A stretch of 33,696 nt of DNA from a virus. Position 1 is the stretch's first letter, and each line of letters opens with the position of its first letter. Positions 3,001 through 23,907 of the stretch are shown in pieces. Under the pieces are notes generated by a model. That model did no database searches and was not told where the DNA came from. It was given only the letters and a program-made list of their open reading frames with translations. The position numbers and the translations under genes were made by a program. The stretch is taken from positions 1-33,696 of the IMG/VR virus record IMGVR_UViG_3300049810_001425; one strand, 5' to 3'.

Positions 3001-6000
3001 CAAAGGAGACTTACTCAATTAGAAACAGCAGTCTCACTTTCTATGTTGGAAGAAAAAACAGAAACATTACAAGTTTTAGATGACGATGGATTTGATAAAT
3101 TTAAATCTGGTTTTGTTGTCGACCCATTTAAAGGTCATGGAGTTGGAGATGTATTCCACCCAGACTATGGTATTGCAGTAGACCAAAAAGAAGGTATTGC
3201 AAGACCATCACATAGAACAAATTATTTTGACCTAGAATACAATACAGGTATCTCTTCTAATATTACTAAAAGTGGTGACTTACTTACATTACCATTTACA
3301 GAAGAAGCTCATATCACTTCTAACAAAGCATCACAACAAGTCAATGTTAACCCATATGATGTTGCAAATTTTGTAGGAAGAATGGAACTAAGTCCAGACA
3401 AGGATGTTTGGCATGACATGGAACAACTACCAAGTATTACTTCATCTCAAGAAGGAAACTTTGATGCAGTATTAGCTGGTGTTGAAGTAGGTACAGTATG
3501 GAATGATTGGCAACAAACATGGGCAGGTATTCCAACTGTAACCCAACAAGTAGGTAACTTCTTAGAAAATAATATGTTAGGTGACGAACCAGAAGAGTTT
3601 GAATTACTTAGAGGTAGAAGATTTAGAAGAAGAAGAAGAGTCATTAATAGGGGTAGAGGTAGAGTTGCAGTTACAACTACACAGGTTAGAACTATACCAA
3701 CAAGAGAAAGAAGAAGTGGTATTATAACTAATGTAGTAGAAGATATTTCAACAACAAGAAATGATAGAGTTGTTGGTGTATCTGCAATCAACTTCATGAG
3801 AACAATAGACATTACCTTAACTGGTGAATTGTTAAAACCAAATACTGCATTAAATGTATTCTTTGATAACATCAATGTAAATGCACATTGTACTCCAGCA
3901 TCTGGAACTTATGGTGTAAGTGGTGGAACTTCAAAGGGAACAAAACTTAAAACAGATAATCAAGGTAAACTTAATGCAACCTTTACAGTACCAAACGATG
4001 ACACCTTAAGATTTGAAACTGGTGTTAGAACTTTAAAAGTTACTGATACTGATACAGTCGATAGTGCATTGTCAACCACTTCTGCATTTTCAAACTTCAT
4101 GGCAAATGGTTCATTAACTTCTACACAAACAGAAGTTATTTCTACAAGAAATGGTAGAGTAGTAAATGAAACAGTAAACGAAGGTAGAGCAAATCAACTT
4201 GTTGATATAACTACTACAACAAGATGGGTTGACCCACTTGCACAATCATTCTTAGTAGAAAGAGAAGAGGGTGTATTCATAAACTCTATTGAAGTATTCT
4301 TTAGTGCAAAAGATGGTGGTGGATTACCAGTAACATGTTCTATTAGACAGATGTTAAATGGTTCACCAACTCAGAAGGTATTACCTTTTGCAGAGAAAAC
4401 ATTATATCCAAGTGAGATTACAACAAGTGCAAATGCACAAACAGCTACTAAGTTTACTTTCCCAGCACCAGTATACTTGAATCCAAATACAGAATATTGT
4501 TTTGTACTTGAATCAAATTCAAATGCATACTTAGCTTGGGTTGGTCAGATGGGTGATTTCGATGTTCATACAAAAGAACCAATCGATAGACAACCATATG
4601 CTGGTGTATTATTTAAATCACAAAACAGTTCAACTTGGACTCCAGAACAATTACAAGACTTGAAATTTAATATCAATAGATGTAAGTTTAGTTCAACATC
4701 TGGTAAGGTAGTTCTAGAGAATAAAGCAATACCAAATAAGAAATTAAAAAGAAATGCAATCGAAATTGTTGGAACAAGTGATAGAGATAGAGTAAGAGTA
4801 TTGCATCAATCACATGGTATGTATGATGGTGATTCAAATGTAATCATATCTGGTGTTGAGGGAGATAAGGATAATGGTATCCTAACTGCAACTAGTAATG
4901 TAACTGGAACAGGTGCATCTGCTACTTATACAGGAATAAGTGGAGTTTCCAGTGGAAATGGTTCTGGTGCAACTTTTGATGTAATCCTTAATACAAACAC
5001 AAATATAAGTTCACTTAAAATTAATAATCCTGGCTTTAACTATGCAGTAAACGAAACAATTACAATTAGACAAGATGCAGTTGGTGGTTCTGGTGCAACA
5101 ACATTTGCAACATTTACAGTTGCATCTGTAGAAGACACTTTAGGTGGAATACCAATTAGTAAGATTAATACAACTCACACTGCAATACAATCATTTGATT
5201 TAGACTCATATGAAATAAATGTAACTCTAGGAGACCACTTAGGTGGTACAGACAATGTTACAGGTGGTGGTGTAAATATATTTGCAACAGAGAATATGTA
5301 CTTTGATGTTGTTCATACTTTAGTACCTAATGTAATTTATCCTAAGACATCTTTAGGTTCAGAACTATTTAAAACAAGTACAAATCAACCACAGGGAACT
5401 GGAAATAGTTATTCATTTGCAAATGCAAGTCAGACGATTGTCTTAAACGATAATAACTTTATGACAACATCTGGTATTATTGCATCACAAATTAATGAAA
5501 CTAATGAAATGGGTTCTGCAAAATCATTCAAGTTAGAACTTGACATGACAACAACTTCTGATTTCGTATCACCAATTGTTGATGTAGGTTCTATTGGTGC
5601 AAATACTATTATGAATAGAATTGATTCAATAAGTTCTTCTAATGATATTGCAACAAACTCAACTTTTGTTGAATCAACAGAACCAGAAGGAGATAATAAC
5701 TCTGCAATCTACTGTACAAGATTAATACAATTAGAAAACCCAGCAACACAATTGAAAGTCATCTTTGATGGGTTCAAACCAGCTGGAACTGCATTAGGTG
5801 AGATTAGAACATACTTTAAATTATTGAAAGCAGATAATACTTTACCAACAGAAGAACTTGGTTGGACTGAATTTGCAACAGACAATGTACCAGATGCAGA
5901 CTCAAGTAAGTTTAGGTCATATGAGTATGATGCAGATAACTTAGAAGAGTTCTTAGGATTCTCAGTTAAGATTGTAATGAAGTCAAAAGATACAACACAA

Positions 6001-8744: not shown

Positions 8745-8773
8745 CTACTTAGATAACATCAAAAGGTAGTATT
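8741..8773 (+). promoter_or_regulatory. Hairpin masking a ribosome binding site
   Basis: AATACTAC (8741-8748) pairs with GTAGTATT (8766-8773). Two further pairs (a T-G wobble and a T-A) extend the stem to 10, with a 13-base loop. The right arm contains the end of the AAAAGG ribosome site for the gene at 8778. Only RNA started upstream of 8741 would contain both arms. Confidence 0.6.
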
Positions 8774-8777
8774 GTAT

Positions 8778-9113
8778 ATGGCAAGTATTAGTAATTTATT
8801 CGTAGACCAAGGGAGTGATTTTAATATTACTGTCTCCTTGACTGATGCCACCGATTCGGCTTTAAATCTTGCAAGTACGACTTTTCTTGGTCAAGTAAGA
8901 AAGTCTCATGGTTCAAATACAGTCAAAGCTACATTTAATACCTCAAATGATGGAGTGGGTGGGAATTTAACTTTAAATCTCACTGATACTCAAACAGCCG
9001 CACTAGAAAGTGGAAGATATGTGTACGATGTCATTCAAACTGCTAGTGATGGAATAAAAACAAGATTGATAGAGGGACAGTTGATTGTAACCCCAAGTGT
9101 AAGTAGGAGTTAA
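8778..9113 (+). CDS. Small virion structural protein of marine T4-like phages
   Basis: This encodes 111 residues, beginning MASISNLFVDQG. This opening, the 'LGQVRKS' strand, the 'LTLNLTDTQTAALESGRYVYDV' core and the 'RLIEGQLIVTPSVSR' end match a short beta-rich protein seen beside fibre genes in cyanophage-type T4-like genomes, where it is annotated as a structural protein. It is probably an immunoglobulin-like beta-sandwich that caps or joins fibres; that role is inference. A TTG two codons earlier (8772) could also start, but the ATG gives the family's usual N terminus. AAAAGG stands upstream, inside a hairpin. The next gene follows 6 bases after the stop. Confidence 0.75.
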   Translation: MASISNLFVDQGSDFNITVSLTDATDSALNLASTTFLGQVRKSHGSNTVKATFNTSNDGVGGNLTLNLTDTQTAALESGRYVYDVIQTASDGIKTRLIEGQLIVTPSVSRS

Positions 9114-10828: not shown

Positions 10829-11236
10829 ATGAGTTACAATGGGAAAGTCTTTAATGTAGATACTAAAATTAGTGATGTAACTGTAGAACAAAGACTAATT
10901 GATTTTGAAATACCTAAAGAAGTAATGAAAGAACTTTATATTCCTATTGATGGTAAAGTTTATATAAGTGATAATGGTAATCTTACTGCTAAGTTGAAGT
11001 TAGATAACTCAGAAGGTGGTAGAGAATTATCATTAGGACTTAGGATTAATGGTCAAGAACCCCCAATAGATTGGTGGGATTCTGGGTCGGATAACTTACA
11101 AAGAGTTATTAGAAAAGTTCCTTATGACTGTTTAGGTTATGTAGGATTAGGTTATGCAGATGACCAGATTAGAATCAAATATACTGTAGACACTTCAACA
11201 TGGAGTGCAACATTAGAAAAAATATCTGTTATATAA
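10829..11236 (+). CDS. Hypothetical beta-rich protein in fibre cluster
   Basis: This encodes 135 residues, with GAGG eleven bases ahead of its ATG. I do not recognise the family. The sequence alternates charged and hydrophobic residues, as in beta-strands ('KVYISDNGNLTAKLKLDN'), and contains a Trp-rich turn 'PPIDWWDSGSDN' and 'VPYDCLGYVGLGYADDQIRIKY'. There is no signal peptide, membrane segment or catalytic motif. Its place between two fibre genes suggests a virion part or fibre chaperone. Its stop codon lies inside a perfect 18-base palindrome. Confidence 0.65.
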   Translation: MSYNGKVFNVDTKISDVTVEQRLIDFEIPKEVMKELYIPIDGKVYISDNGNLTAKLKLDNSEGGRELSLGLRINGQEPPIDWWDSGSDNLQRVIRKVPYDCLGYVGLGYADDQIRIKYTVDTSTWSATLEKISVI

Positions 11237-12625: not shown

Positions 12626-15600
12626 ATGCCAACAAAAGCAAGATATCTTGCAGACCTTTTAAATGCATCTGGAGAACTAGACTCCACAGGTGCAGTTGAA
12701 GCTATACAAGACCAGATTTCAACTCTGTTTGCAGCTGGTTCACATACAGGTATATCATTCAGTTATAATGACAGTAGTGCAACCTTTAGTGCAACAGTAG
12801 GAACAGAATTCATAGAAGATACAGTAGGAGCTATGTTTAGTTCTAATACTGAAACTAATATTACTGCAGCTTATGACGATAGTGATGGAACTATCGACCT
12901 TGCAGTAGAACAACAAGTTAATGGAACAAATCCATATTACTACAAAATACCAGTCACAGTGGCTAGTGGTAAATTTGTAATTGATAACGAATCACAATAT
13001 ATCCTTAAGTTGGCAAAGGGTGTAGTATATAGATTCGACCAATCAGACAATTCAAACTCAAATCATCCTTTAAGATTCTCCATAACAAGTGATGGTACAC
13101 ATGGTGGTGGTTCAGAACTTGCTTCTACACATTATGATATTTACAATAAAGTAGGAACAGCTGGTTCAGCAGGTGCATATGTAGAAATTTCATTTAAGAT
13201 GGGGTCTGCAACTGCAAATAACCCAGCATACTACTATTGTGCAAACCATAGTGGAATGGGTTCAGCTGCAATCGTAGGTACACCATCCAGTACAACATTT
13301 GTACCAGAAGGAACAAATCAATATCACACGACTGAAAGGGTTCAAGATGTAGTTGGTGCAATGGTATCATCTAATACAGAAAGTGGTATAGCAGTGTCCT
13401 ATGACGACTCAGATGGTACTCTGGACTTTAATGTGAACGACCCTACCATTTCCTTGACTGGAGATGTAACTGGTTCTGCAACAATGACAGATTTAGGAAA
13501 CACATCTATATCTACAACAATCGCAGCTAATAGTGTTGCATTAGGAACAGACACAACAGGAAACTATGTTGCAACTGTAACTGGAACTACAAACGAAATT
13601 GAAGTATCTGGTTCTGGTTCAGAAACAGCTGGTGTAACAGTAGGATTACCAGACGATGTAACAGTCGCAGGTGATTTAACAGTTACAGGTGCTGGTTCAA
13701 CAGGTGGTAACTTTACAGTAGGTGGAAACCTAACTGTAAGTGGTAGTACAACTACAGTATCATCTACATCACTGTCAGTAGCAGATAGTACTGTTAAAGT
13801 TGCAAAAGATAACGCTGCTAATTCAGTAGACTTTGGTTACTATGGTCAGTATGTTGATGGTTCAACTACAAAATACGCAGGACTTTTATGGGATGCATCT
13901 GAATCAAATAAATTTAGATTATTCCATGGAAACCAAACAGAACCTACAACTGTAGTCGATACATCTGGAACAGGTCATGCAACAGGTACTTTAATTTCAA
14001 ATGTTGAAGGTGCATTAACAGGTAATGCTTCAACAGCAACTGCACTTGCAAATGCAAGAACTATTGCAGTAGCTGGAGATGTAGTTGGTTCTGCATCTTT
14101 TGATGGAACTGGAAACATATCCCTTAATACAACAATTCAAGCTGACTCAGTTGCATTAGGAACAGATACAACAGGTAATTATGTAGGAACAGTAACAGCA
14201 GGAACAGGTCTTACTTCTACAGGTGCAACTTCTGGTGAAGGTATTGCACATTCATTATCAGTAGACGCTGCACAAAGTGGAATAACAAGTCTTGGTACTC
14301 TTACTTCATTAACAGTAGATGATATTACTATTAATGGTTCAACCATTACTGATGCTGGAGATTTAGACTTCGATATCGGTGGAGATATGACTGTTGATAT
14401 TGATGGTGGTGACATTATCTTAAAAGATGGTGGAACACAATTTGGTAAGTTTACCCAGATGATTGGTGGTCTTGCTATTGGTGCTGGTTCTGGTACTGAT
14501 ATTCCTATTTTAGTTTCATCAAACAAAACTTTATTCTTTACAGATATTGCACTAGGTGACGATGAAAAGATTGTTCTTGGAGATGGTGCAACTGGTAACT
14601 TGCAAATATTCCATGATGGAACAGACAGTTTCCTTGATGATGTATCAGACGGCAATCTAATACTCAGAACAAATGGCACAAGTGTCAAGATGATGACTGG
14701 TTCTGAGGATATGGTTGTTGCAACCAAAGATGGCTCAGTAGATTTATACCACGATAATTCTAAAAAATTAGAAACAACTGCAAATGGTGTAACAGTAACA
14801 GGTGGTGTTACAGCAACATCATTTACAGGTGCATTAAGTGGTAATGCAACAACAGCTACAGCATTAGCAACTCCAAGAACAATTCATGGTGTATCATTTG
14901 ATGGTAGTGCAAATATTGACCTTACAGAAGTAGTTCAAGATACAATAGGTGCAATGTTTAGTTCAAATACTGAAACAGGTATTACTGCATCATATGAAGA
15001 TGGTGATGGAACAATAGATTTAGTAATAAACACAACTGCATCAACTATTTCAGATTTCACAGAATCAGTAGAAGATGTTGTTGGTGGAATGGTAACAACT
15101 AACACAGAAAGTGGTATTACAGTTACATATGATGACTCAGATGGTACTTTAGACTTTAATGTTGATGACGCAGTACTTAGTTTCACAGGAGATGTAACTG
15201 GTTCAGCAACAATGACCAACCTAGGTAATACTTCAACTGCATTAACAATTGCAGCTGGTTCTGTAGAAAACAGTATGTTAGCAGGTTCTATTTCAAATAG
15301 TAATCTTGCAAACTCAAGTATAACAGTTGCTACATCTGGTAGTTCAACTGCAACTGCATTGGGTGGAACAATAACATTTGCTGGAACATCAAACGAAGTA
15401 GATGTATCAGAAAGTTCTGGAACAATTACATATGGATTACCAGCCGATGTTACAGTATCAAATGACTTAACAGTTAGTGGTAACTTAGTAGTTTCTGGTA
15501 CAACAACACAAACAGGTGCAATTGTATCAGATTCAAACTTTACAGGTTTAACAAATGCAAACACTGGAAATTCAACAGACTTTGGTTTCTATGGTAAGTA

Positions 15601-16891
15601 TGTAGAATCAACAACAACAAAATATGCTGGTTTATTCTTTGATGCATCAACAGATAATACATTTAGATTATTTGCAGATACACAAACAGTACCTTCAACA
15701 ACAGTTAATACATCTGCAACAGGATATGGAGTTGGAACTCTAGTTGCAAATATTACAGGTAATGTGAGTGGTACTTCTGGAAGTACAACAGGAAACGCTG
15801 CAACTGCAACTGCACTTGCATCGTCAAGAAACTTTACAGTAAGTGGAGATGCAACTACAGATTCATCACAATCATTTGATGGAACAGGTAATGTTGCATT
15901 ACCAATTACACTTGCAAATACTGGTGTATCAGCTGCAACTTATGGTGATGCAAATAGTGTTGCTCAAGTAGCAGTAGATTCAAAAGGTAGAATAACAAGT
16001 GCATCTAGTGTAGACATTAGTATGCCTTCATCTCAAGTATCAGACTTTGCAGAAGCAGTATCCGACACAGTAGGTGCAATGTTCAGTTCAAATACTGAAA
16101 CAGGTATTACTGTAACATATCAAGATGCAGACAATACAATTGACCTAGCAGTAGGTACAGTTGCATTAGGTTCTGGAACATCTGGAAACTATGTTGACAA
16201 TGTTACTGGTGGAACTGGTGTTACTGTAACAGGTAGTGCTGGTGAAGGATGGGAGCCTGCAATTAGTATTGGACAGGCAGTATCAACAACCTCAGATGTA
16301 ACCTTTGCAGATATAGCTGCAACAGATATAACTGCTGGTGGTAATGTTGTAATTACTGGTAACCTAACAGTTAATGGTTCATCTGTAACAAACAGTTCAA
16401 CAAACACAACAATTGAAGATGCATTAATAGAACTTGGTTCTGGTAATACTGGTTCAAACAGTAATGACTTAGGTCTTATACTTGAAAGAGGTTCAACAGG
16501 TAACAATGCATTTATGGGTTGGGACGAGAGTGCAGATAAGTTTGTTATGGGAACAACTACTGCAACAGGTTCTTCAACAGGTGGTTTAACAGTAACTACT
16601 GGAACATTAGTTGCAAACATAGAAGGTAATGTTACAGGCAATGTCTCTGGAAGTGCAGCTACAGTTACAGGTGCAGCTCAATCTGCAATTACAAGTGTTG
16701 GAACATTGAGTTCACTTGCAGTTAGTGGTAACCAAACAGTAGGTGGAACACTAGGAGTTACAGGAGCTGCAACAACAAGTTATACAACAATAGGTGCTAG
16801 TGCAAAGGCATTCAGAAATACATTTATACATTCTTCTGCACCTAGTGGTTCAGATGGAGCAGTAGGTGATATCTGGATAACATACTCATAG
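12626..16891 (+). CDS. Large modular tail fibre with cupredoxin-like domain
   Basis: This encodes 1421 residues. At least five modules of the form '(V/I)(E/Q/S)D.VG(A/G)M.(S/T)(S/T)NTE(S/T).I...Y.D.D.T.D' occur, starting near residues 63, 240, 770, 815 and 1145. Two 'DFG(Y/F)YG(Q/K)YV...TTKYAGL' modules and several '(L)TV.G..TV..' and 'VALGTDTTGNYV' segments are also repeated. Residues about 103-218 form an inserted domain with H147-P-L-R-F-S and Y-Y-C205-x2-H208-x2-M211-G, the ligand order of a type 1 copper protein such as amicyanin. The C terminus ends 'GSDGAVGDIWITYS', as in many marine phage fibres. The gene most likely encodes the main long fibre or a side-fibre subunit; the receptor is unknown. 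AGGAG precedes the ATG. Confidence 0.85.
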   Translation: MPTKARYLADLLNASGELDSTGAVEAIQDQISTLFAAGSHTGISFSYNDSSATFSATVGTEFIEDTVGAMFSSNTETNITAAYDDSDGTIDLAVEQQVNGTNPYYYKIPVTVASGKFVIDNESQYILKLAKGVVYRFDQSDNSNSNHPLRFSITSDGTHGGGSELASTHYDIYNKVGTAGSAGAYVEISFKMGSATANNPAYYYCANHSGMGSAAIVGTPSSTTFVPEGTNQYHTTERVQDVVGAMVSSNTESGIAVSYDDSDGTLDFNVNDPTISLTGDVTGSATMTDLGNTSISTTIAANSVALGTDTTGNYVATVTGTTNEIEVSGSGSETAGVTVGLPDDVTVAGDLTVTGAGSTGGNFTVGGNLTVSGSTTTVSSTSLSVADSTVKVAKDNAANSVDFGYYGQYVDGSTTKYAGLLWDASESNKFRLFHGNQTEPTTVVDTSGTGHATGTLISNVEGALTGNASTATALANARTIAVAGDVVGSASFDGTGNISLNTTIQADSVALGTDTTGNYVGTVTAGTGLTSTGATSGEGIAHSLSVDAAQSGITSLGTLTSLTVDDITINGSTITDAGDLDFDIGGDMTVDIDGGDIILKDGGTQFGKFTQMIGGLAIGAGSGTDIPILVSSNKTLFFTDIALGDDEKIVLGDGATGNLQIFHDGTDSFLDDVSDGNLILRTNGTSVKMMTGSEDMVVATKDGSVDLYHDNSKKLETTANGVTVTGGVTATSFTGALSGNATTATALATPRTIHGVSFDGSANIDLTEVVQDTIGAMFSSNTETGITASYEDGDGTIDLVINTTASTISDFTESVEDVVGGMVTTNTESGITVTYDDSDGTLDFNVDDAVLSFTGDVTGSATMTNLGNTSTALTIAAGSVENSMLAGSISNSNLANSSITVATSGSSTATALGGTITFAGTSNEVDVSESSGTITYGLPADVTVSNDLTVSGNLVVSGTTTQTGAIVSDSNFTGLTNANTGNSTDFGFYGKYVESTTTKYAGLFFDASTDNTFRLFADTQTVPSTTVNTSATGYGVGTLVANITGNVSGTSGSTTGNAATATALASSRNFTVSGDATTDSSQSFDGTGNVALPITLANTGVSAATYGDANSVAQVAVDSKGRITSASSVDISMPSSQVSDFAEAVSDTVGAMFSSNTETGITVTYQDADNTIDLAVGTVALGSGTSGNYVDNVTGGTGVTVTGSAGEGWEPAISIGQAVSTTSDVTFADIAATDITAGGNVVITGNLTVNGSSVTNSSTNTTIEDALIELGSGNTGSNSNDLGLILERGSTGNNAFMGWDESADKFVMGTTTATGSSTGGLTVTTGTLVANIEGNVTGNVSGSAATVTGAAQSAITSVGTLSSLAVSGNQTVGGTLGVTGAATTSYTTIGASAKAFRNTFIHSSAPSGSDGAVGDIWITYS

Positions 16892-16923: not shown

Positions 16924-18633
16924 ATGAGTTCAAAAGTAAAAACCCCAGCTGGGTGGAATGAAACCAATGGATGGAGAGTTAAGACTCCAGCTGGCTGGAA
17001 GAAAGTAGTTGATGTAAAAAGAAAGACTCCATCTGGATGGGAATTCCAGACTGGAACTATACAGGTGCAACAACCTTTTACACAAACATATCAACAACCT
17101 TTTCAACAACCTTTTCAACAGGGATATCAACAACCCTATGAACAAACTATTAGTAGACCTACAACTTATGAGGTAACTATACCTAGACCTACTACTTTTC
17201 AAACTCCAAGACCTGCTAACTATGAGGTGACTATACCTAGACCCACTTCTTATGAAGTAACTATTCCAAGACCTACACAGGTACAGAATAGTAGACCAGC
17301 AAATTATCAGACTCCAAGACCTGCTAACTATGAGGTGACTATACCTAGACCAACTTCTTATGAAGTGACTATACCTAGACCCACTTCTTACGAGGTAACT
17401 ATTCCGAGACCAACACAGGTACAGAATAGTAGACCTACAAGTTATGAGGTGACTATACCTAGACCTACAAGTTATGAGGTGACTATACCTAGACCTACAA
17501 GTTATGAGGTAACTATACCTAGACCTACAAGTTATGAGGTAACTATACCTAGACCTACAACCTATGAACAGACTATACCAAGACCTACAACTTATCAGAT
17601 TCAAAATCATAGACCTCAACAGTATAATTATCAGATTCAAAATCATAGACCTCAACAGTATAATTATCAGATTCAAAATCATAGACCTGGCCAGTATAAT
17701 TATCAGATTCAGAATGCTAGACCAACAACTTATCAGACTCAAGGACACTCTCATAGACCAGTATCTAACCAACAAACATACCAAGTGAATTTACATACTG
17801 CGGCAAACCCTAAGTTTGGTGCTGGGGCAACTAATGCTCAGTTTCCTAATGCACAAATGACTTGGAGTGGTACTGCATTACCTCAGTTTCAACCAGCTGG
17901 GCCTTGGGCACCAAATAATATTACTAGTCAACAACCTTATAATTATCAGATACAAAATCATAGACCTGCTAATTACCAAACTCAAGGTCATGCTACTAGA
18001 CCTACTAATTATCAGACACAAGGTCATTCAACTAGACCACAGAATTATCAGACACAAGGTCATTCAACTAGACCACAGAATTATCAGACACAAGGTCACA
18101 GACCTGCTAGTTATGAGGTGACTATACCTAGACCTGCTAGTTATGAACAGACTATTAATAGACCAGCAAACTACGAACAAACGATTAATAGACCAGCAAA
18201 CTACGAGCAAACGATTCCCAGACCTGCTAACTATCAAACTAGTAGACCTGCTAACTATGAACAGACTATTAATAGACCTGCTAACTATGAACAGACTATT
18301 AATAGACCTGCTAGTTATGAACAAACAATACCTAGACCTACTCAGTTACAAAATAGTAGACCTACTAACTATCAAACTAGTAGACCAAGTACATTTGAAC
18401 AAACTATTAATAGACCTTCAACATTTGAACAAACTATTCCTAGACCAACTCAGTTGCAAAACAATAGACCTGCTAACTTTGAACAGACTATCAGTAGACC
18501 TGCCAACTATGAAGTGACATTGACTAGACCAGCAAATAGGCCTAGTACTAGACCATCGACTCGACCTTCAACAAGACCATCGACTCGACCAGTATCTACT
18601 TGGGATGGTGACTTGAATAAACCTTGGCCTTAA
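16924..18633 (+). CDS. Arg-Pro repeat protein, putative fibre or adhesin
   Basis: This encodes 569 residues. The N terminus has KTP(A/S)GW three times with an exact period of 14 residues (6-11, 20-25, 34-39). A Gln/Pro-rich linker follows. From about residue 78 almost the whole chain consists of units of 10 (RP-(T/A/S)-x-(Y/F)-E-(V/Q)-T-(I/L)-x) or 12 (RP-x-x-Y-x-(Y)-Q-(I/T)-Q-(N/G)-H) residues. Residues about 279-339 are a non-repeating island rich in Ala, Pro and Trp. The end is RPST repeats and 'TWDGDLNKPWP'. Composition is limited mainly to R, P, T, Y, Q, N, S, E, V and I. Repeat copies differ at third codon positions, indicating selection on protein as well as recent duplication. GAGGA lies 10 bases before the ATG. 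The function is unknown; its position and make-up suggest an extended virion appendage. Minus-strand frames here are shadows. Confidence 0.8.
   Translation: MSSKVKTPAGWNETNGWRVKTPAGWKKVVDVKRKTPSGWEFQTGTIQVQQPFTQTYQQPFQQPFQQGYQQPYEQTISRPTTYEVTIPRPTTFQTPRPANYEVTIPRPTSYEVTIPRPTQVQNSRPANYQTPRPANYEVTIPRPTSYEVTIPRPTSYEVTIPRPTQVQNSRPTSYEVTIPRPTSYEVTIPRPTSYEVTIPRPTSYEVTIPRPTTYEQTIPRPTTYQIQNHRPQQYNYQIQNHRPQQYNYQIQNHRPGQYNYQIQNARPTTYQTQGHSHRPVSNQQTYQVNLHTAANPKFGAGATNAQFPNAQMTWSGTALPQFQPAGPWAPNNITSQQPYNYQIQNHRPANYQTQGHATRPTNYQTQGHSTRPQNYQTQGHSTRPQNYQTQGHRPASYEVTIPRPASYEQTINRPANYEQTINRPANYEQTIPRPANYQTSRPANYEQTINRPANYEQTINRPASYEQTIPRPTQLQNSRPTNYQTSRPSTFEQTINRPSTFEQTIPRPTQLQNNRPANFEQTISRPANYEVTLTRPANRPSTRPSTRPSTRPSTRPVSTWDGDLNKPWP
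17431..17550 (+). repeat. Four tandem 30-base repeats
   Basis: Four adjacent copies encoding RPTSYEVTIP. They differ only by a G/A change in the Val codon (two GTG copies, then two GTA copies), which points to recent duplication. Confidence 0.9.
17593..17700 (+). repeat. Three tandem 36-base repeats
   Basis: Three adjacent copies encoding YQIQNHRPQQYN; the third has Gly in place of one Gln. A partial fourth copy follows. Confidence 0.9.
18007..18078 (+). repeat. Two identical 36-base repeats
   Basis: Two identical adjacent copies encoding NYQTQGHSTRPQ, followed by a partial third copy that runs into the next repeat type. Confidence 0.88.
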
Positions 18634-18674
18634 ACCTTACTATATACTAGTACAGATTATATTATGGAGTTATT

Positions 18675-19313
18675 ATGTTATTAATTTATGACCACGACAA
18701 TGTTTTGCACATTACCAATGAAAAAGGACTTCGTTGGAATTATGACAAAGCAGACAAACCACAATTTTCATTTGACTATGATTTTTTATTCTATATAGAA
18801 CAAGATGAGTTATTTGAAATAGAATTAGGTGAAGAAACTTCTATAATAACAGATGAACAACAATCTGAAATTTTAGAATATATAAACCTTTTAGAACCAC
18901 CACTAAGTTTAACTCTTGCAAATCAGTATATAAAAGATTTAAGAAATGAAACAATTGATAAAATCAATTATGTTCATGAAGAATTTACAAGAGGAATATG
19001 TGGATTTGACAGTACAGTAGATGTTGTTATTGCTGGTAGAGAAGGTTCTCAAGACCCTAGACGACAAGTTGCAAGAAGAATTATGGAATGGTGTGATTTT
19101 GCACATGGTTTATGTGAAAGAATGGTTGAAGAACTAGGAAAAACTTTAGATGAAGATTTAAAAGACTTTGGTCATTATATGCATAGTCTAGCAGAAATTC
19201 CTAGAGTAGGACACTTTATGGATGACTCACCAATCGATGAAAGATTTAACACCGATACACTAGATGTTAATGGTGGTGAGGATAAACTAGGTGAAGACAA
19301 AAAAGCAGTCTAA
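18675..19313 (+). CDS. Acidic protein of unknown function after the repeat gene
   Basis: This encodes 212 residues with GGAG 5 bases before the ATG. The N-terminal 70 residues look beta-rich ('LLIYDHDNVLHITNEKG', 'FSFDYDFLFYIEQDELFEIEL'). The rest is mainly helical and includes 'YVHEEFTRGICGFDSTVDVVI' (quoted in part) and 'RRQVARRIMEWCDFAHGLCERM'. The C-terminal tail is strongly acidic. I do not recognise a family. Placement directly after a fibre-type gene is where T4-like phages often encode fibre assembly factors, so a chaperone role is possible but unproven. It overlaps the next gene by 23 bases, implying coupled translation. Confidence 0.68.
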   Translation: MLLIYDHDNVLHITNEKGLRWNYDKADKPQFSFDYDFLFYIEQDELFEIELGEETSIITDEQQSEILEYINLLEPPLSLTLANQYIKDLRNETIDKINYVHEEFTRGICGFDSTVDVVIAGREGSQDPRRQVARRIMEWCDFAHGLCERMVEELGKTLDEDLKDFGHYMHSLAEIPRVGHFMDDSPIDERFNTDTLDVNGGEDKLGEDKKAV

Positions 19314-20196
19314 TAAACCAAAAAAACTTTCTGGTATAGGACATCATAATTATGATGAATATCTTGATAATTATGCATGGTTAGATAAACCACTTAATAT
19401 TGAATATCTAAACAAACCTAAACCGATAGAATCTCTTCCTTTTAAACAAGTATGGGTAATTGATAATTATCTATCACCAGCTATATGGAGTTCGTGGAGA
19501 GAACATAGAGATGCATCAAAAAATTGGGGAAGACAAAATAAAGTTTTTAGGAATAATGAAACTCAACATTTGTATTGGGGTGAAGCTGTATACATAAATG
19601 TTGGTGAAAGTGGTAGAAGTCATGATGGGAATGCATTAAAAGATACCTATGGTAATGGTAAGATGGTTAGTTATGCATTGTATAACTATAATAATCCTAG
19701 ATTTTTAACATCTTCTTGGAAGGAAAATGTTCTTGCAAGAGAACATGAAGGATATAGACATTCTCATATTGATTGGTTTATTCATAAACTAAGACAAGAT
19801 TTTAGATTTAATTGGGAGTACTTTCAATATTGTGGTTTCAATGGACAAACTATTGGACAAGATGGTACAGTACATGAAGATACACATTTAAACGATTCTG
19901 CTCTTACTAATTTATCATTCTTATATTATGACCAAGAATATTGGGAAGATGACTGGGGTGGTGATTTAATTTTTTACAATAGAGAATATCATGACCATAG
20001 TGTCACAGGTATTCCAGAAGATGAAGACCAATACGAAATAGGTAGATTACAATATAAACCTAATCGATTGGTAGTAATGAATGGTGCAATAACACATAGA
20101 CACCCAGCACCATCAGCCGAATATACTAAGGAAAATGGATTTCCTTTTAGAACAAGTATGGTTGTTCGTGGAGACAGATGTAGTCTTTTTGAGTAA
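19291..20196 (+). CDS. 2OG-Fe(II) oxygenase, prolyl hydroxylase-like
   Basis: This encodes 301 residues from a GTG start that overlaps the previous gene; GGTGAGG lies upstream. The C-terminal half has the double-stranded beta-helix pattern: 'TVHEDTH' with H195-x-D197, then 'LTNLSFLYYDQEYWEDDWGGDLIFY', quoted here in a run broken by its strand pattern, then 'PNRLVVMNGAITHRHPAP' with a distal His at 269 (or 271), and an Arg at 287 in 'FRTSMVVRG' placed to bind 2-oxoglutarate. These residues fit a non-haem iron dioxygenase that hydroxylates a protein side chain or small molecule. Substrate is unknown. Its nearest virion-type neighbour is the proline-repeat protein, which makes prolyl hydroxylation worth testing. 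Confidence 0.78.
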   Translation: MKTKKQSNKPKKLSGIGHHNYDEYLDNYAWLDKPLNIEYLNKPKPIESLPFKQVWVIDNYLSPAIWSSWREHRDASKNWGRQNKVFRNNETQHLYWGEAVYINVGESGRSHDGNALKDTYGNGKMVSYALYNYNNPRFLTSSWKENVLAREHEGYRHSHIDWFIHKLRQDFRFNWEYFQYCGFNGQTIGQDGTVHEDTHLNDSALTNLSFLYYDQEYWEDDWGGDLIFYNREYHDHSVTGIPEDEDQYEIGRLQYKPNRLVVMNGAITHRHPAPSAEYTKENGFPFRTSMVVRGDRCSLFE

Positions 20197-20210: not shown

Positions 20211-20999
20211 ATGAAAACAAAAACAATTTTAATTATGGGACTGCCTGGCAGTGGAAAAACTTACATCTCAAAATGTCTACTTGAACATTTAGATGCAGAC
20301 CATTTTAATGCAGATGCAGTCCGAGCCCAACACAATGATTGGGATTTCTCAGAAGAAGGTAGAATGAGACAAGTACATAGGATGAAAGACCTATGTAGAG
20401 AATCCGAAAAACCATATGCAATTATGGATTTCGTATGTCCATTTACTCAAGGTCGACAAATTTTAAATCCAGATTATATAATCTTTATGGATACAATCGA
20501 TAAAGGTAGATATGCAGATACTAATAAAGCATTTCAAAGACCTTTAAAAAATGAAATAGATTATCTGGTAGAAGACCAGAATGGTGAACTTCATTCAGAA
20601 GTTATTGCAAGAGAAATACTTGCAGAAAATAAAAGGTTTGATGAAAATAAACCTACTACACAAATGTTAGGTAGATTTCAACCTTTTCATGATGGTCATC
20701 ATGCACTGTTTAAAAGATGTTTTGATAAAACAGGACAAGTAGTAATTATGGTTCGTGCAATGGAAAACACTGCAAAGAATCCATTTGACTTCAAGACAGT
20801 AAAACAAAATATTAAAATGTTTTTACTAGGAGAAGGATACGAAGAAAATATACACTATATTATACAGAAAGTACCAAACATTGTCAACATAACATATGGA
20901 AGAGATGTGGGGTACAAGATAGAAGAAGAGTCTTTTGATAAAGAGACAGAATCAATCTCTGCAACAGAGATTCGGAGACAACTTGGATACTCACAGTAA
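20211..20999 (+). CDS. APS kinase-like / nucleotidyltransferase fusion
   Basis: This encodes 262 residues. Residues 1-145 form a P-loop kinase domain: Walker A G10-LPGSGKT-17, 'LDADHFNADAVR' and 'DFSEEGRMRQVHRM' as in adenylylsulfate kinases. Residues 150-262 form a second domain with G154-RFQPFH-DGHH and I249-SATEIR-255, the two signatures of HIGH-type nucleotidyltransferases such as NMN adenylyltransferase. Such a pair could phosphorylate a small molecule and attach a nucleotide, but the substrate is not visible. The kinase part is shorter than usual cellular APS kinases. No Shine-Dalgarno sequence is obvious before the ATG, 14 bases after the oxygenase stop. The last 17 bases overlap the DUF2061 gene. 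Confidence 0.8.
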   Translation: MKTKTILIMGLPGSGKTYISKCLLEHLDADHFNADAVRAQHNDWDFSEEGRMRQVHRMKDLCRESEKPYAIMDFVCPFTQGRQILNPDYIIFMDTIDKGRYADTNKAFQRPLKNEIDYLVEDQNGELHSEVIAREILAENKRFDENKPTTQMLGRFQPFHDGHHALFKRCFDKTGQVVIMVRAMENTAKNPFDFKTVKQNIKMFLLGEGYEENIHYIIQKVPNIVNITYGRDVGYKIEEESFDKETESISATEIRRQLGYSQ

Positions 21000-21171
21000 G
21001 TCAATTGCAAAAGCATTTTCATGGAGAATTATTGCAACAGTTACTACTGGATTAATTAGTTATTTTCTTACAGGTTCAGTTGAGGTTGCAGCTGGTATTA
21101 TGACTTTTGACTTCTTCTTAAAATTATTATTATATTATTTACATGAGCGAATATGGACAAATGCCCAATAA
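20983..21171 (+). CDS. DUF2061 small membrane protein
   Basis: This encodes 62 residues from TTG at 20983, chosen because GGAG lies exactly 5 bases upstream and because the resulting 'MDTHSKSIAKAFSWRIIAT' is the usual DUF2061 opening. A longer TTG frame from 20935 has no such site and would overlap 65 bases of the preceding gene. Two hydrophobic segments (about residues 14-30 and 32-52, 'WRIIATVTTGLISYFLTG' and 'GIMTFDFFLKLLLYY') are followed by the family's 'HERIW' end. DUF2061 proteins are small inner-membrane proteins of unknown function. Overlap with the kinase/nucleotidyltransferase gene suggests the two act together, possibly tying the enzyme to the membrane. Confidence 0.8.
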   Translation: MDTHSKSIAKAFSWRIIATVTTGLISYFLTGSVEVAAGIMTFDFFLKLLLYYLHERIWTNAQ

Positions 21172-22046
21172 AAGAAATGGAAATACTATTTGAATGTGTC
21201 CAAGACACAGAGAATAGTTTATTTGAACCCATTCCAGCAAAGAAAGTTAGACCAGAGTGGTTCAAGAAACTACCTTTGTATATAGATAATTTTAATGAAA
21301 CATCTGAAACTATAAAGAAATGTCCAGCTATGCAAGATTGGATGAACATGGGTTATCTAATTAGAAATAGACATACTGTTCTTGTTGCATTGCATACAGG
21401 TGATAAAGACAAAGAACCAGTATCACTTGCACTTGCATTAAAGGATGATATTCCAAAAGATAAGTTTAAAAGACTTAAAGAACTAGTCAAGGTATTTAAT
21501 AAAACTGGTAGTTTAGATGATACTGATAGAATACAAGAGTATTGCAAATCACATCGTCTTCTTGTAGAAGAACTAGATGGTAATTATGTTATGGGTGGTC
21601 ATCCAGCTGCTCAAACAAGAGGTAGTGGTTTTGATGATAAGATGGCATTTAAATTTAAGTTGGATTTTTTAATAACAACACCTAAAGGAACTTCTACATA
21701 TTGGTTAGACCCATTTTTATTTAATAATCCATTCTTTCATGCATGGCAAGGAATAATAGATACCGACACATTTAATCAAATAACAACTAATAATATGTGT
21801 ATTTTTTATCCCAAAGCAGATAATAGTTTTATTATACCAAAAGGTACACCAATCGTACAAGTTGTACCTTTTGTAAGATATCCATGGAAACACAAAATTG
21901 AATATCGTACAAGAGAAGAACTTTTAGAAAAAATGAATGACCCAATTGTAGATTTACTTGAAAAACGAGGTCGTGGTAAAAATAAAATTAAAGACCATGA
22001 ACATTTTTATAGAAAAAAACTTGCATCTAAAAAGGAGTGGAACTAA
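21153..22046 (+). CDS. Conserved marine-phage protein (DUF6065-like?)
   Basis: This encodes 297 residues. The pattern 'IPAKKVRPEWFKKLP', then 'TIKKCPAMQDWMNMGYLI', then 'FKF...TPKGTSTYWLDP', then 'GIIDTD.(F)N' and 'IPKGTPIVQVVPFVR' resembles a conserved family in marine phages that I think is DUF6065; I am not certain. The middle of this copy (about residues 70-165) looks like an insert with charged helices ('HTGDKDKEPVSLALALKDD'). No catalytic motif is known to me. It starts inside the DUF2061 gene (19-base overlap) and its stop shares a base with the next ATG (TAATG), so it belongs to one translational unit. A second in-frame ATG at 21177 is possible. Confidence 0.65.
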   Translation: MDKCPIKEMEILFECVQDTENSLFEPIPAKKVRPEWFKKLPLYIDNFNETSETIKKCPAMQDWMNMGYLIRNRHTVLVALHTGDKDKEPVSLALALKDDIPKDKFKRLKELVKVFNKTGSLDDTDRIQEYCKSHRLLVEELDGNYVMGGHPAAQTRGSGFDDKMAFKFKLDFLITTPKGTSTYWLDPFLFNNPFFHAWQGIIDTDTFNQITTNNMCIFYPKADNSFIIPKGTPIVQVVPFVRYPWKHKIEYRTREELLEKMNDPIVDLLEKRGRGKNKIKDHEHFYRKKLASKKEWN

Positions 22047-22756
22047 TGTTTTTACCAATGTTTTCATGGAATGTTTTCAGAACAAATCTTGTAGATGAGG
22101 GATACATTACTCATGAACAACTTAATGCAATGAAGAAAGAGTCCTATACCATGAGGAAAGAAAATCCAGTTGGTAGGAATCGTTCTAATAATGCATCTGG
22201 TTGGCAGTCCGATGATGGTGTAAACAATAGACCTATATTCCAGTCTTTGTTGAATGGTGTTGAATCTGTTTTTAATAATGAAGTTTTTCCCTATTATATG
22301 GGAGAATATAAGAATGATTATGAATTAGAACATGGTAACTATTGGGTAAATATTAATTACAATACTTCATACAATAATCCTCATACACATCCTGGCTGCT
22401 GGTATAGTGGTGCATTCTATGTACAGATACCAGAAGAAACTAAAAATGATGGATGGGTACAATTCTTGAGAGGTCAAACACATCATATGTCAGACTTTTC
22501 ACATATGTCTCGAAGAGATGCAGATAATTTTGGGTTTATACCAAGAGAAGGTGACTTATTACTATTCCCTTCTGCAATGATACATTATGTAGAACCACAT
22601 AGTAGTGACTTCGAAAGGATATCTATTGCATTTAATAATAGTTTTAGAAATATTCACACTGGTGATTTAAACCAAGCAATGAATGGAAAACCAACATTTA
22701 ACGATGTCTTAGAGTTTAATGTCTTACCAGATGGAAATCTTGAATTCCCTAAATAA
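22046..22756 (+). CDS. Putative 2OG-Fe(II) oxygenase, TIGR02466-like
   Basis: This encodes 236 residues from the ATG at 22046, chosen over the GTG at 22037 because AAGGAG ends 8 bases upstream. The core 'NYNTSYNNPHTHPGCWYSGAFYVQIP' (pieces: H113-T-H115, then SGAFYV), 'GDLLLFPSAMIHYVEPH' with H180, and 'ERISIAFN' with R191 match putative oxygenases of the TIGR02466 type. The usual HxD iron ligands read H-x-H here, so a third ligand other than Asp must be used, or the enzyme may be altered. Substrate is unknown. It is the second oxygenase-like gene in the cassette, translationally coupled to the gene before it. Confidence 0.7.
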   Translation: MFLPMFSWNVFRTNLVDEGYITHEQLNAMKKESYTMRKENPVGRNRSNNASGWQSDDGVNNRPIFQSLLNGVESVFNNEVFPYYMGEYKNDYELEHGNYWVNINYNTSYNNPHTHPGCWYSGAFYVQIPEETKNDGWVQFLRGQTHHMSDFSHMSRRDADNFGFIPREGDLLLFPSAMIHYVEPHSSDFERISIAFNNSFRNIHTGDLNQAMNGKPTFNDVLEFNVLPDGNLEFPK

Positions 22757-23091: not shown

Positions 23092-23907
23092 ATGGCAGCT
23101 CCAAACAGCAAAGCAACACTTAAAGAATATGCATTAAGACAACTGGGTAAACCAGTGTTAGATATCAATGTAGATGATGACCAGATTGATGATATCATCG
23201 ATGATGCATTACAATATTTTGCAGAGTACCACTATGATGGTACTATTCGTACATTTTTAAAACATAAAATTAATGATAACGACCTTGCAAACCAAAAATC
23301 AAATGCAAGTATAGGTCAATCAACTACTGGTTCACATATATCAACTAATATGACATATGAAGAAGGACAAGGATATGTTGTTCTTCCAGAATCAGTATTA
23401 TCAGTATTAAGAATATTTCCATTTGTAGATAAGTCTGGACTTAATATGTTTGACTTAAGATATCAATTAAGACTAAACGACCTTTACGATATCTCTTCTA
23501 CATCTATCATACAATATGAAATGGTACAAAACCATATTCAATTATTGGACGAAATTCTAATCGGACAAGTTCCAATTAGATTTAATAAAGCACAAAACAG
23601 ATTATACTTAGATATGGATTGGACAGCTGCAGTTACAGCTGGTGAATATATTTTGATAGATTGTTATAGAAAAATAGACCCAACACAATTTACAGACATA
23701 TACAACGATGTTTGGTTAAAAAAATATGTCACTGCATTAATTAAAAAACAATGGGGTCAGAACTTATCTAAGTTCGAAGGAATTCAATTGCCTGGCGGAG
23801 TTACTCTACAGGGTAGACAAATCCTAGAAGATGCAAACACAGAAATTGAAAAGCTAGAAGAACAAAGTAATTTATTACAAACCGAATCTGCTCTAATGAT
23901 GGGTTAA
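23092..23907 (+). CDS. 13: Neck protein gp13, head completion
   Basis: This encodes 271 residues (T4 gp13: about 309). The N-terminal signature 'LRQLGKPVLDINVDDDQ' and 'IDDIIDDALQYFAEYHYDG' is diagnostic. The middle has 'DLYDISSTSIIQYEM' and 'IRFNKAQNRLYLDMDW', and the C-terminal helix includes 'LKKYVTALIKKQWGQNLSKF'. In T4 gp13 binds the filled head under the portal and, with gp14, makes the surface to which the tail joins. Gene 14 follows after 4 bases, and the 13-14-15-16-17 order is that of T4. AGGA lies 7 bases before the ATG, below a hairpin. Expected to be a late gene. Confidence 0.93.
   Translation: MAAPNSKATLKEYALRQLGKPVLDINVDDDQIDDIIDDALQYFAEYHYDGTIRTFLKHKINDNDLANQKSNASIGQSTTGSHISTNMTYEEGQGYVVLPESVLSVLRIFPFVDKSGLNMFDLRYQLRLNDLYDISSTSIIQYEMVQNHIQLLDEILIGQVPIRFNKAQNRLYLDMDWTAAVTAGEYILIDCYRKIDPTQFTDIYNDVWLKKYVTALIKKQWGQNLSKFEGIQLPGGVTLQGRQILEDANTEIEKLEEQSNLLQTESALMMG

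Follow-up and report, generated by a model that had tools for sequence, protein, structure and literature searches.

Conserved linkage of an evenly spaced proline-repeat protein with a 2-oxoglutarate oxygenase in the structural gene cluster of a marine phage and its relatives

A repeat protein (REP), a conserved protein (orf212), a 2OG-Fe(II) oxygenase (OXY1), a phrog_7084 family protein, a second oxygenase (OXY2) and a gp13-like neck protein are encoded in the same order in 45 phage lineages, down to about 30% identity. The prolines of the repeat protein follow a parity rule that is kept while its sequence changes. The best current reading of this arrangement, held tentatively and at less than even confidence, is a virion appendage that the phage itself modifies; that proline is the residue modified is held with less certainty.

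The locus was analyzed in a window of 33,696 nucleotides, positions 1 to 33,696 of IMG/VR record IMGVR_UViG_3300049810_001425. Judged by the surrounding genes, the window belongs to the structural cluster of a marine phage of T4-like type. Upstream lie tail-fibre and baseplate-like genes, and gp13-, gp14- and gp15-like neck/sheath-stabiliser genes, terminase and tail sheath lie downstream. The features of the module are the following.

12626..16891, + strand: tail-fibre-like protein, 1421 aa, directly upstream of REP569 (phrog_7389/30742 tail fiber)
16924..18633, + strand: REP569, repeat protein with KTPxGW module, Pro/Tyr/Gln/Thr repeats and WDGxLxxPWP
18675..19313, + strand: orf212, 212-aa conserved protein, the most constant neighbour of OXY1
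19291..20196, + strand: OXY1, 301-aa 2OG-Fe(II) oxygenase (H195, D197, H269, R287)
20211..20999, + strand: kin262, P-loop (APS-kinase-like) and nucleotidyltransferase domains, clade A only
20935..21171, + strand: small DUF2061 membrane protein (PF09834, E 9.5e-19)
21153..22046, + strand: phrog_7084 family protein, conserved part of the module (phrog_7084, E 8e-30)
22037..22756, + strand: OXY2, second 2OG-Fe(II) oxygenase (PF13759 / TIGR02466)
23092..23907, + strand: gp13-like neck protein that anchors the module downstream (phrog_211, E 1e-46)

The protein upstream of REP569 matched its tail fiber families at E 1e-12 to 1e-9, and a tail-fibre-like gene likewise adjoins REP in the clade A relatives. 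The recurring order is fibre, REP, orf212, OXY1, kinase/nucleotidyltransferase, DUF2061, phrog_7084, OXY2, small ORF and gp13. kin262 is absent in L042 and L044; in L038 (10848-11282) and L039 (10851-11285), it lacks the P-loop kinase half and keeps the C-terminal nucleotidyltransferase domain alone. An oxygenase one gene past the repeat gene and a second one further on had both been noted in the preliminary description of this DNA, and both are in place, with orf212 lying between REP569 and OXY1 and three genes lying between OXY1 and OXY2.

REP569 is a single open frame of 569 aa with 79 prolines. The dozens of Arg-Pro units described earlier amount to 46, against a mean of 6.7 and a maximum of 16 in 2000 composition shuffles. 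The frame measures 553-569 aa in close relatives and 524-604 aa elsewhere in the clade; because it is conserved across relatives, REP569 is a gene and not a chance frame. The N-terminus carries a triple KTPxGW module (about residues 1-48) and the C-terminus a WDGxLxxPWP motif. These terminal modules are conserved, whereas the repeat units, built in REP569 from Pro/Tyr/Gln/Thr with even-only spacing, are wholly replaced from lineage to lineage. The label "fibre-type" given to the protein earlier is an interpretation that the gene position favours; Pfam and PHROG searches returned no family match above cut-off. A PDB search also gave no match, and AF2 produced no usable model (pLDDT 33). Among INPHARED isolates, tblastn found no match to the REP or OXY1 of the window, none was found for the L132 repeat protein, and the L053 repeat protein had a single match, in Vibrio phage F23s1 at 22% coverage. 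Two candidates were rejected: the L042 REP match to MW202485 falls within a Ser-repeat gene whose annotation uses a different frame, and L237 has a P-rich ORF that encodes a PEPT-type protein outside the REP family.

In L057, L075, L060, L093, L108 and others, REP consists of two adjacent ORFs, a KTPxGW N-terminal half and a C-terminal half, both with the spacing rule; this split is frequent in clade D. In L075, the first repeat ORF (3217-4482) has at its end a Hint/intein-like domain, ~150 aa long and matched weakly by Pfam Hint, which sits directly ahead of the start of the second, and protein splicing or self-cleavage is possible there. A 284-aa antisense frame in the window (16930-17784, - strand) mirrors the repeats and is likely a by-product of repeat DNA rather than a gene.

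In each version of REP, the Pro-Pro spacings are even and the Pro-to-aromatic spacings are odd. In the clade of the window, most RP-to-RP units have a length of 4, 8, 10 or 12 residues, and 647 of 659 are even. The repeats of other lineages are very different, such as ATGTYPAQRP and QQPYGF in L042, YPYIANAQEPNIRNRQ in L057 and RRRPVQQSYQYHNRVP in L132, and the rule is common to the four unrelated repeat types. Even Pro-Pro spacing had P = 3e-10 to 1e-76 over the four types, computed on distinct contexts with identical ones removed; these values overstate independence because repeats inside one protein are related, and the agreement of four unrelated types is a stronger argument than the P values. 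Aromatic-aromatic spacing is likewise even in most versions, with L024 and L038 as exceptions. When 419 P-containing ORFs from the loci were scanned, those with at least 80% even spacings almost all belonged to the REP family. The repeats show selection on spacing parity while the sequence varies freely. This parity is compatible with a beta-type strand whose prolines share one edge, because a beta strand alternates every second residue; prolines at one parity would leave one edge without amide hydrogens and the other free to pair. A collagen-like reading, which the preliminary description had drawn on as an analogy, was rejected: REP has no Gly-X-Y, and its rhythm of two residues disfavours collagen, which has a three-residue period.

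OXY1 is a 2OG-Fe(II) oxygenase by its residues, profile and model. The HxD...H iron-binding triad is complete (H195, D197, H269), and R287, past the distal His, is the basic 2-oxoglutarate residue. These four residues stand exactly where they had been reported and are invariant in 49/49 representatives. The match to PF13640 reached 22.9 bits (E 1.8e-4), under the 27-bit cut-off, whereas the distant OXY1 of L142 exceeds it with 35.1 bits; phrog_274 was matched at E 2e-7. The model (pLDDT 75, pTM 0.79) is strand-rich and matches 2OG oxygenase folds. The best PDB profile match was the Dictyostelium prolyl hydroxylase 6t8m (E = 0.014). In Foldseek, the best E-values belonged to small-molecule 2OG enzymes (FtmOx1/SptF-type, TM about 0.4), and PHD2, 6t8m and 4iw3, the Pseudomonas EF-Tu prolyl hydroxylase, came lower down among 118 matches with E <= 0.001; against viral models, the top match bears a prolyl 4-hydroxylase name. 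The distal His and the basic residue are 18 residues apart in the window, and this spacing is shorter in PHD2. The earlier placement in the prolyl 4-hydroxylase group is therefore borne out in its catalytic residues but weak as a family assignment, because the Pfam score is under the cut-off, the 6t8m match is at E = 0.014 and Foldseek favours small-molecule enzymes. Related enzymes occur elsewhere, adjoining tail fibres in S-CAM1 and amid replication genes in P-SSM2. OXY1 of L183 (8785) and L186 (2923) has 414 aa, about 170 aa above its relatives, which is possibly a fusion.

REP and OXY1 were found together in 116 loci, many of which repeat one contig or phage population, so the 45 OXY1 clusters at 90% identity are the fairer number. 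The initial searches of viral contigs used REP and OXY1 as queries and hence start from the pair itself; for this reason, gp13 and phrog_7084 were added as anchors. In the gp13-anchored scan (80 loci), REP and OXY1 were both present or both absent where the contig was long enough, with the single exception of L124, and neither was found in related phages outside the REP/OXY1 clade. In the phrog_7084-anchored scan, REP (or a rule-obeying repeat ORF) and OXY1 were present in 37/37 contigs that had gp13 and >=6.5 kb upstream. The co-occurrence suggested earlier as a check holds in all sufficiently long clade contigs but one. The case named earlier as speaking against self-modification, a repeat gene without a nearby oxygenase, was looked for and not seen in clade contigs long enough to tell. 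kin262, the DUF2061 gene and a glycosyltransferase-like gene vary in presence, whereas REP and OXY1 are constant. All REP/OXY1 loci group in a single clade of the gp13 tree, and their linkage could thus be synteny inherited from an ancestor; a linkage that was acquired once and then kept counts for less than one gained repeatedly.

orf212 is present in every REP/OXY1 lineage and had no convincing match in Pfam, NCBIfam, PHROG or PDB. Its identity as a known tail-fibre chaperone was tried, but its profile showed no match to those of window 8772-9113, window 10829-11236 or the S-CAM1 chaperone. L124 (= L228) carries orf212-OXY1-phrog_7084-OXY2-gp13 with baseplate-type genes upstream in the place of REP; its contig stops 3 kb further upstream, and REP may be elsewhere. 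In L142 and L145, OXY1 and a shortened orf212 (the C-terminal part) lie in another neighbourhood, away from REP. Because the pair persists in these three loci, orf212 is the nearest partner of OXY1.

The record behind L142, called G001, is a divergent phage of 150,920 bases in which no KTPxGW module was found, with positive controls run. It encodes a protein of 647 aa for which no relation to REP was detected and whose spacing tendency is REP-like (P-P even 59/70, P-aromatic odd 63/72, and a weaker aromatic-aromatic tendency, even 73/103). After this protein come a PF13640 oxygenase (E 2e-13, with PKHD-type hydroxylases as PDB relatives), phrog_7084, a JmjC-type gene, a PF13759 oxygenase and gp13; OXY1-orf212 lies elsewhere in the same record, apart from it. 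The different make-up of this cluster indicates that the association of repeat protein and oxygenase is not confined to one arrangement. Possible sulfotransferase genes, one matching phrog_3347, also occur in G001 (L157:4596-6109).

OXY2 matched PF13759 (E 3e-20, 72.8 bits, cut-off 27), TIGR02466 (86.9 bits, cut-off 62.5) and PDB 3bvc (E 7e-12), and its H116, H118, H183 and R194 are invariant in 10 aligned sequences. The phrog_7084 protein is present in all REP lineages and in G001. Its relatives also occur near virion genes in haloarchaeal tailed viruses, as in Halophage HF1 (L160, 48119-49003 of the record), where the stretch shown has no annotated oxygenase. Lineages other than A and B (clades C and D) have a ~500-aa gene between REP and orf212. 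The C-terminal half of its product has 35-39% identity to proteins annotated as glycosyltransferase; Pfam, NCBIfam and PDB did not recognise the protein. L021 (2002-2607) and L022 (2000-2605) have an insertion between REP and orf212 that encodes a protein of 201 aa; its start is like a signal peptide, and it resembles TorF-type porins.

In the self-modification reading, REP569 is probably a virion structural protein, extended in shape and forming an appendage close to the baseplate, tail fibres or neck. The repeats would run as beta-type strands, their prolines lined up along one edge or face and their Tyr/Phe along the opposite one. OXY1 would hydroxylate REP residues during assembly, with orf212 helping or placing it, and the likeliest target would be proline, since nothing else in the repeats is as constant. 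Further modifications may come from OXY2 and, in many lineages, from the glycosyltransferase-like protein. The co-occurrence of REP and OXY1, the invariant site, the spacing rule, the glycosyltransferase-like gene, the G001 cluster and the position between tail-fibre-like and neck genes argue for this reading, whereas the single gp13 clade, the attachment of OXY1 to orf212 rather than to REP and the OXY1-like gene amid the replication genes of P-SSM2 argue against it. A wider proposal is that a widespread clade of marine phages makes a so far unrecognised class of virion fibre, beta-type in structure and set apart by the spacing rule instead of by sequence, and matures it by self-encoded hydroxylation, in many lineages with glycosylation afterwards; this is unlikely.

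A substantial possibility is that OXY1 modifies another target (orf212, another tail or neck protein, or a host protein) and that REP is linked to it through the conserved late structural cluster. OXY1-orf212 is indeed the tightest pair and persists with REP elsewhere or unseen (L124, L142, L145), oxygenases often adjoin tail-fibre genes where no such repeats occur (Mosig, S-CAM1), and one clade holds all REP/OXY1 loci; yet a rule-obeying repeat protein is again followed by oxygenases in the rearranged cluster of G001, and REP and OXY1 stay where the accessory genes come and go. A role of the oxygenases unrelated to the virion, with nucleic acid or small molecules as substrates in DNA repair or auxiliary metabolism, is improbable. 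A DNA-repair role has been proposed for phage 2OG oxygenases (PMC9146016), the P-SSM2 gene fits such a role, and PHROGs labels the family of OXY1 "DNA endonuclease V"; but this label conflicts with the intact HxD...H site, and both oxygenases lie within the structural block in every REP lineage. Least probable is that REP is an assembly aid or disordered linker outside the virion, with even spacing serving the binding of a two-residue-periodic partner and the oxygenases unrelated. The low-complexity composition and the AF2 result agree with it, but the conserved terminal modules, the near-constant length in clade A and the position among tail genes do not.

Many 2OG oxygenases of unassigned target are carried by marine phages and are often assumed to serve DNA repair or metabolism; the literature found treats them as DNA-repair or auxiliary metabolic genes. 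In that literature, with subscription journals mostly outside the search, neither a study tying phage oxygenases to virion proline hydroxylation nor a prior report of the REP/OXY module was found. The REP/OXY1 locus offers a concrete candidate protein substrate conserved in 45 lineages, and its gene neighbourhood makes the substrate question directly testable. Parity that is kept while sequence drifts may point to a fibre architecture that homology searches miss.

Several known systems resemble parts of this locus. OXY1 shares the HxD...H...R site, a strand-rich model and a weak 6t8m match with the prolyl 4-hydroxylase/HIF-PHD-like enzymes (PF13640); it differs in its sub-threshold Pfam score, His-to-Arg distance of 18 and unspecific Foldseek result. 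In the cyanophage and pelagiphage examples S-CAM1 and Mosig EXVC030M, oxygenases of the same broad families adjoin tail-fibre genes, but the stretches examined hold no repeat protein with even Pro spacing. Pelagibacter phage Mosig (L046, 8880-13965) has, in the interval from its tail fibres to gp13, four annotated 2OG oxygenases together with ferrochelatase, heme oxygenase and PcyA, and this oxygenase cluster adjoins a protein of 516 aa whose C-terminal half is rich in Gly. The C-terminus of T4 gp5 is a triple-stranded beta-helix of octapeptide repeats; compared by sequence, REP shares repeat units of even length but lacks the VxGxxxxx motif and has Pro instead of Gly. T4 fibritin (whiskers) is encoded between fibre genes and gp13, the same position as REP; the likeness is one of position, and the repeats of REP are Pro-rich and not heptads. 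Mimivirus and chloroviruses encode collagens together with viral hydroxylases. REP differs from these collagens in lacking Gly-X-Y, in its two-residue rhythm and in being a putative substrate, but in both cases the virus encodes a repetitive protein and a possible modifying oxygenase.
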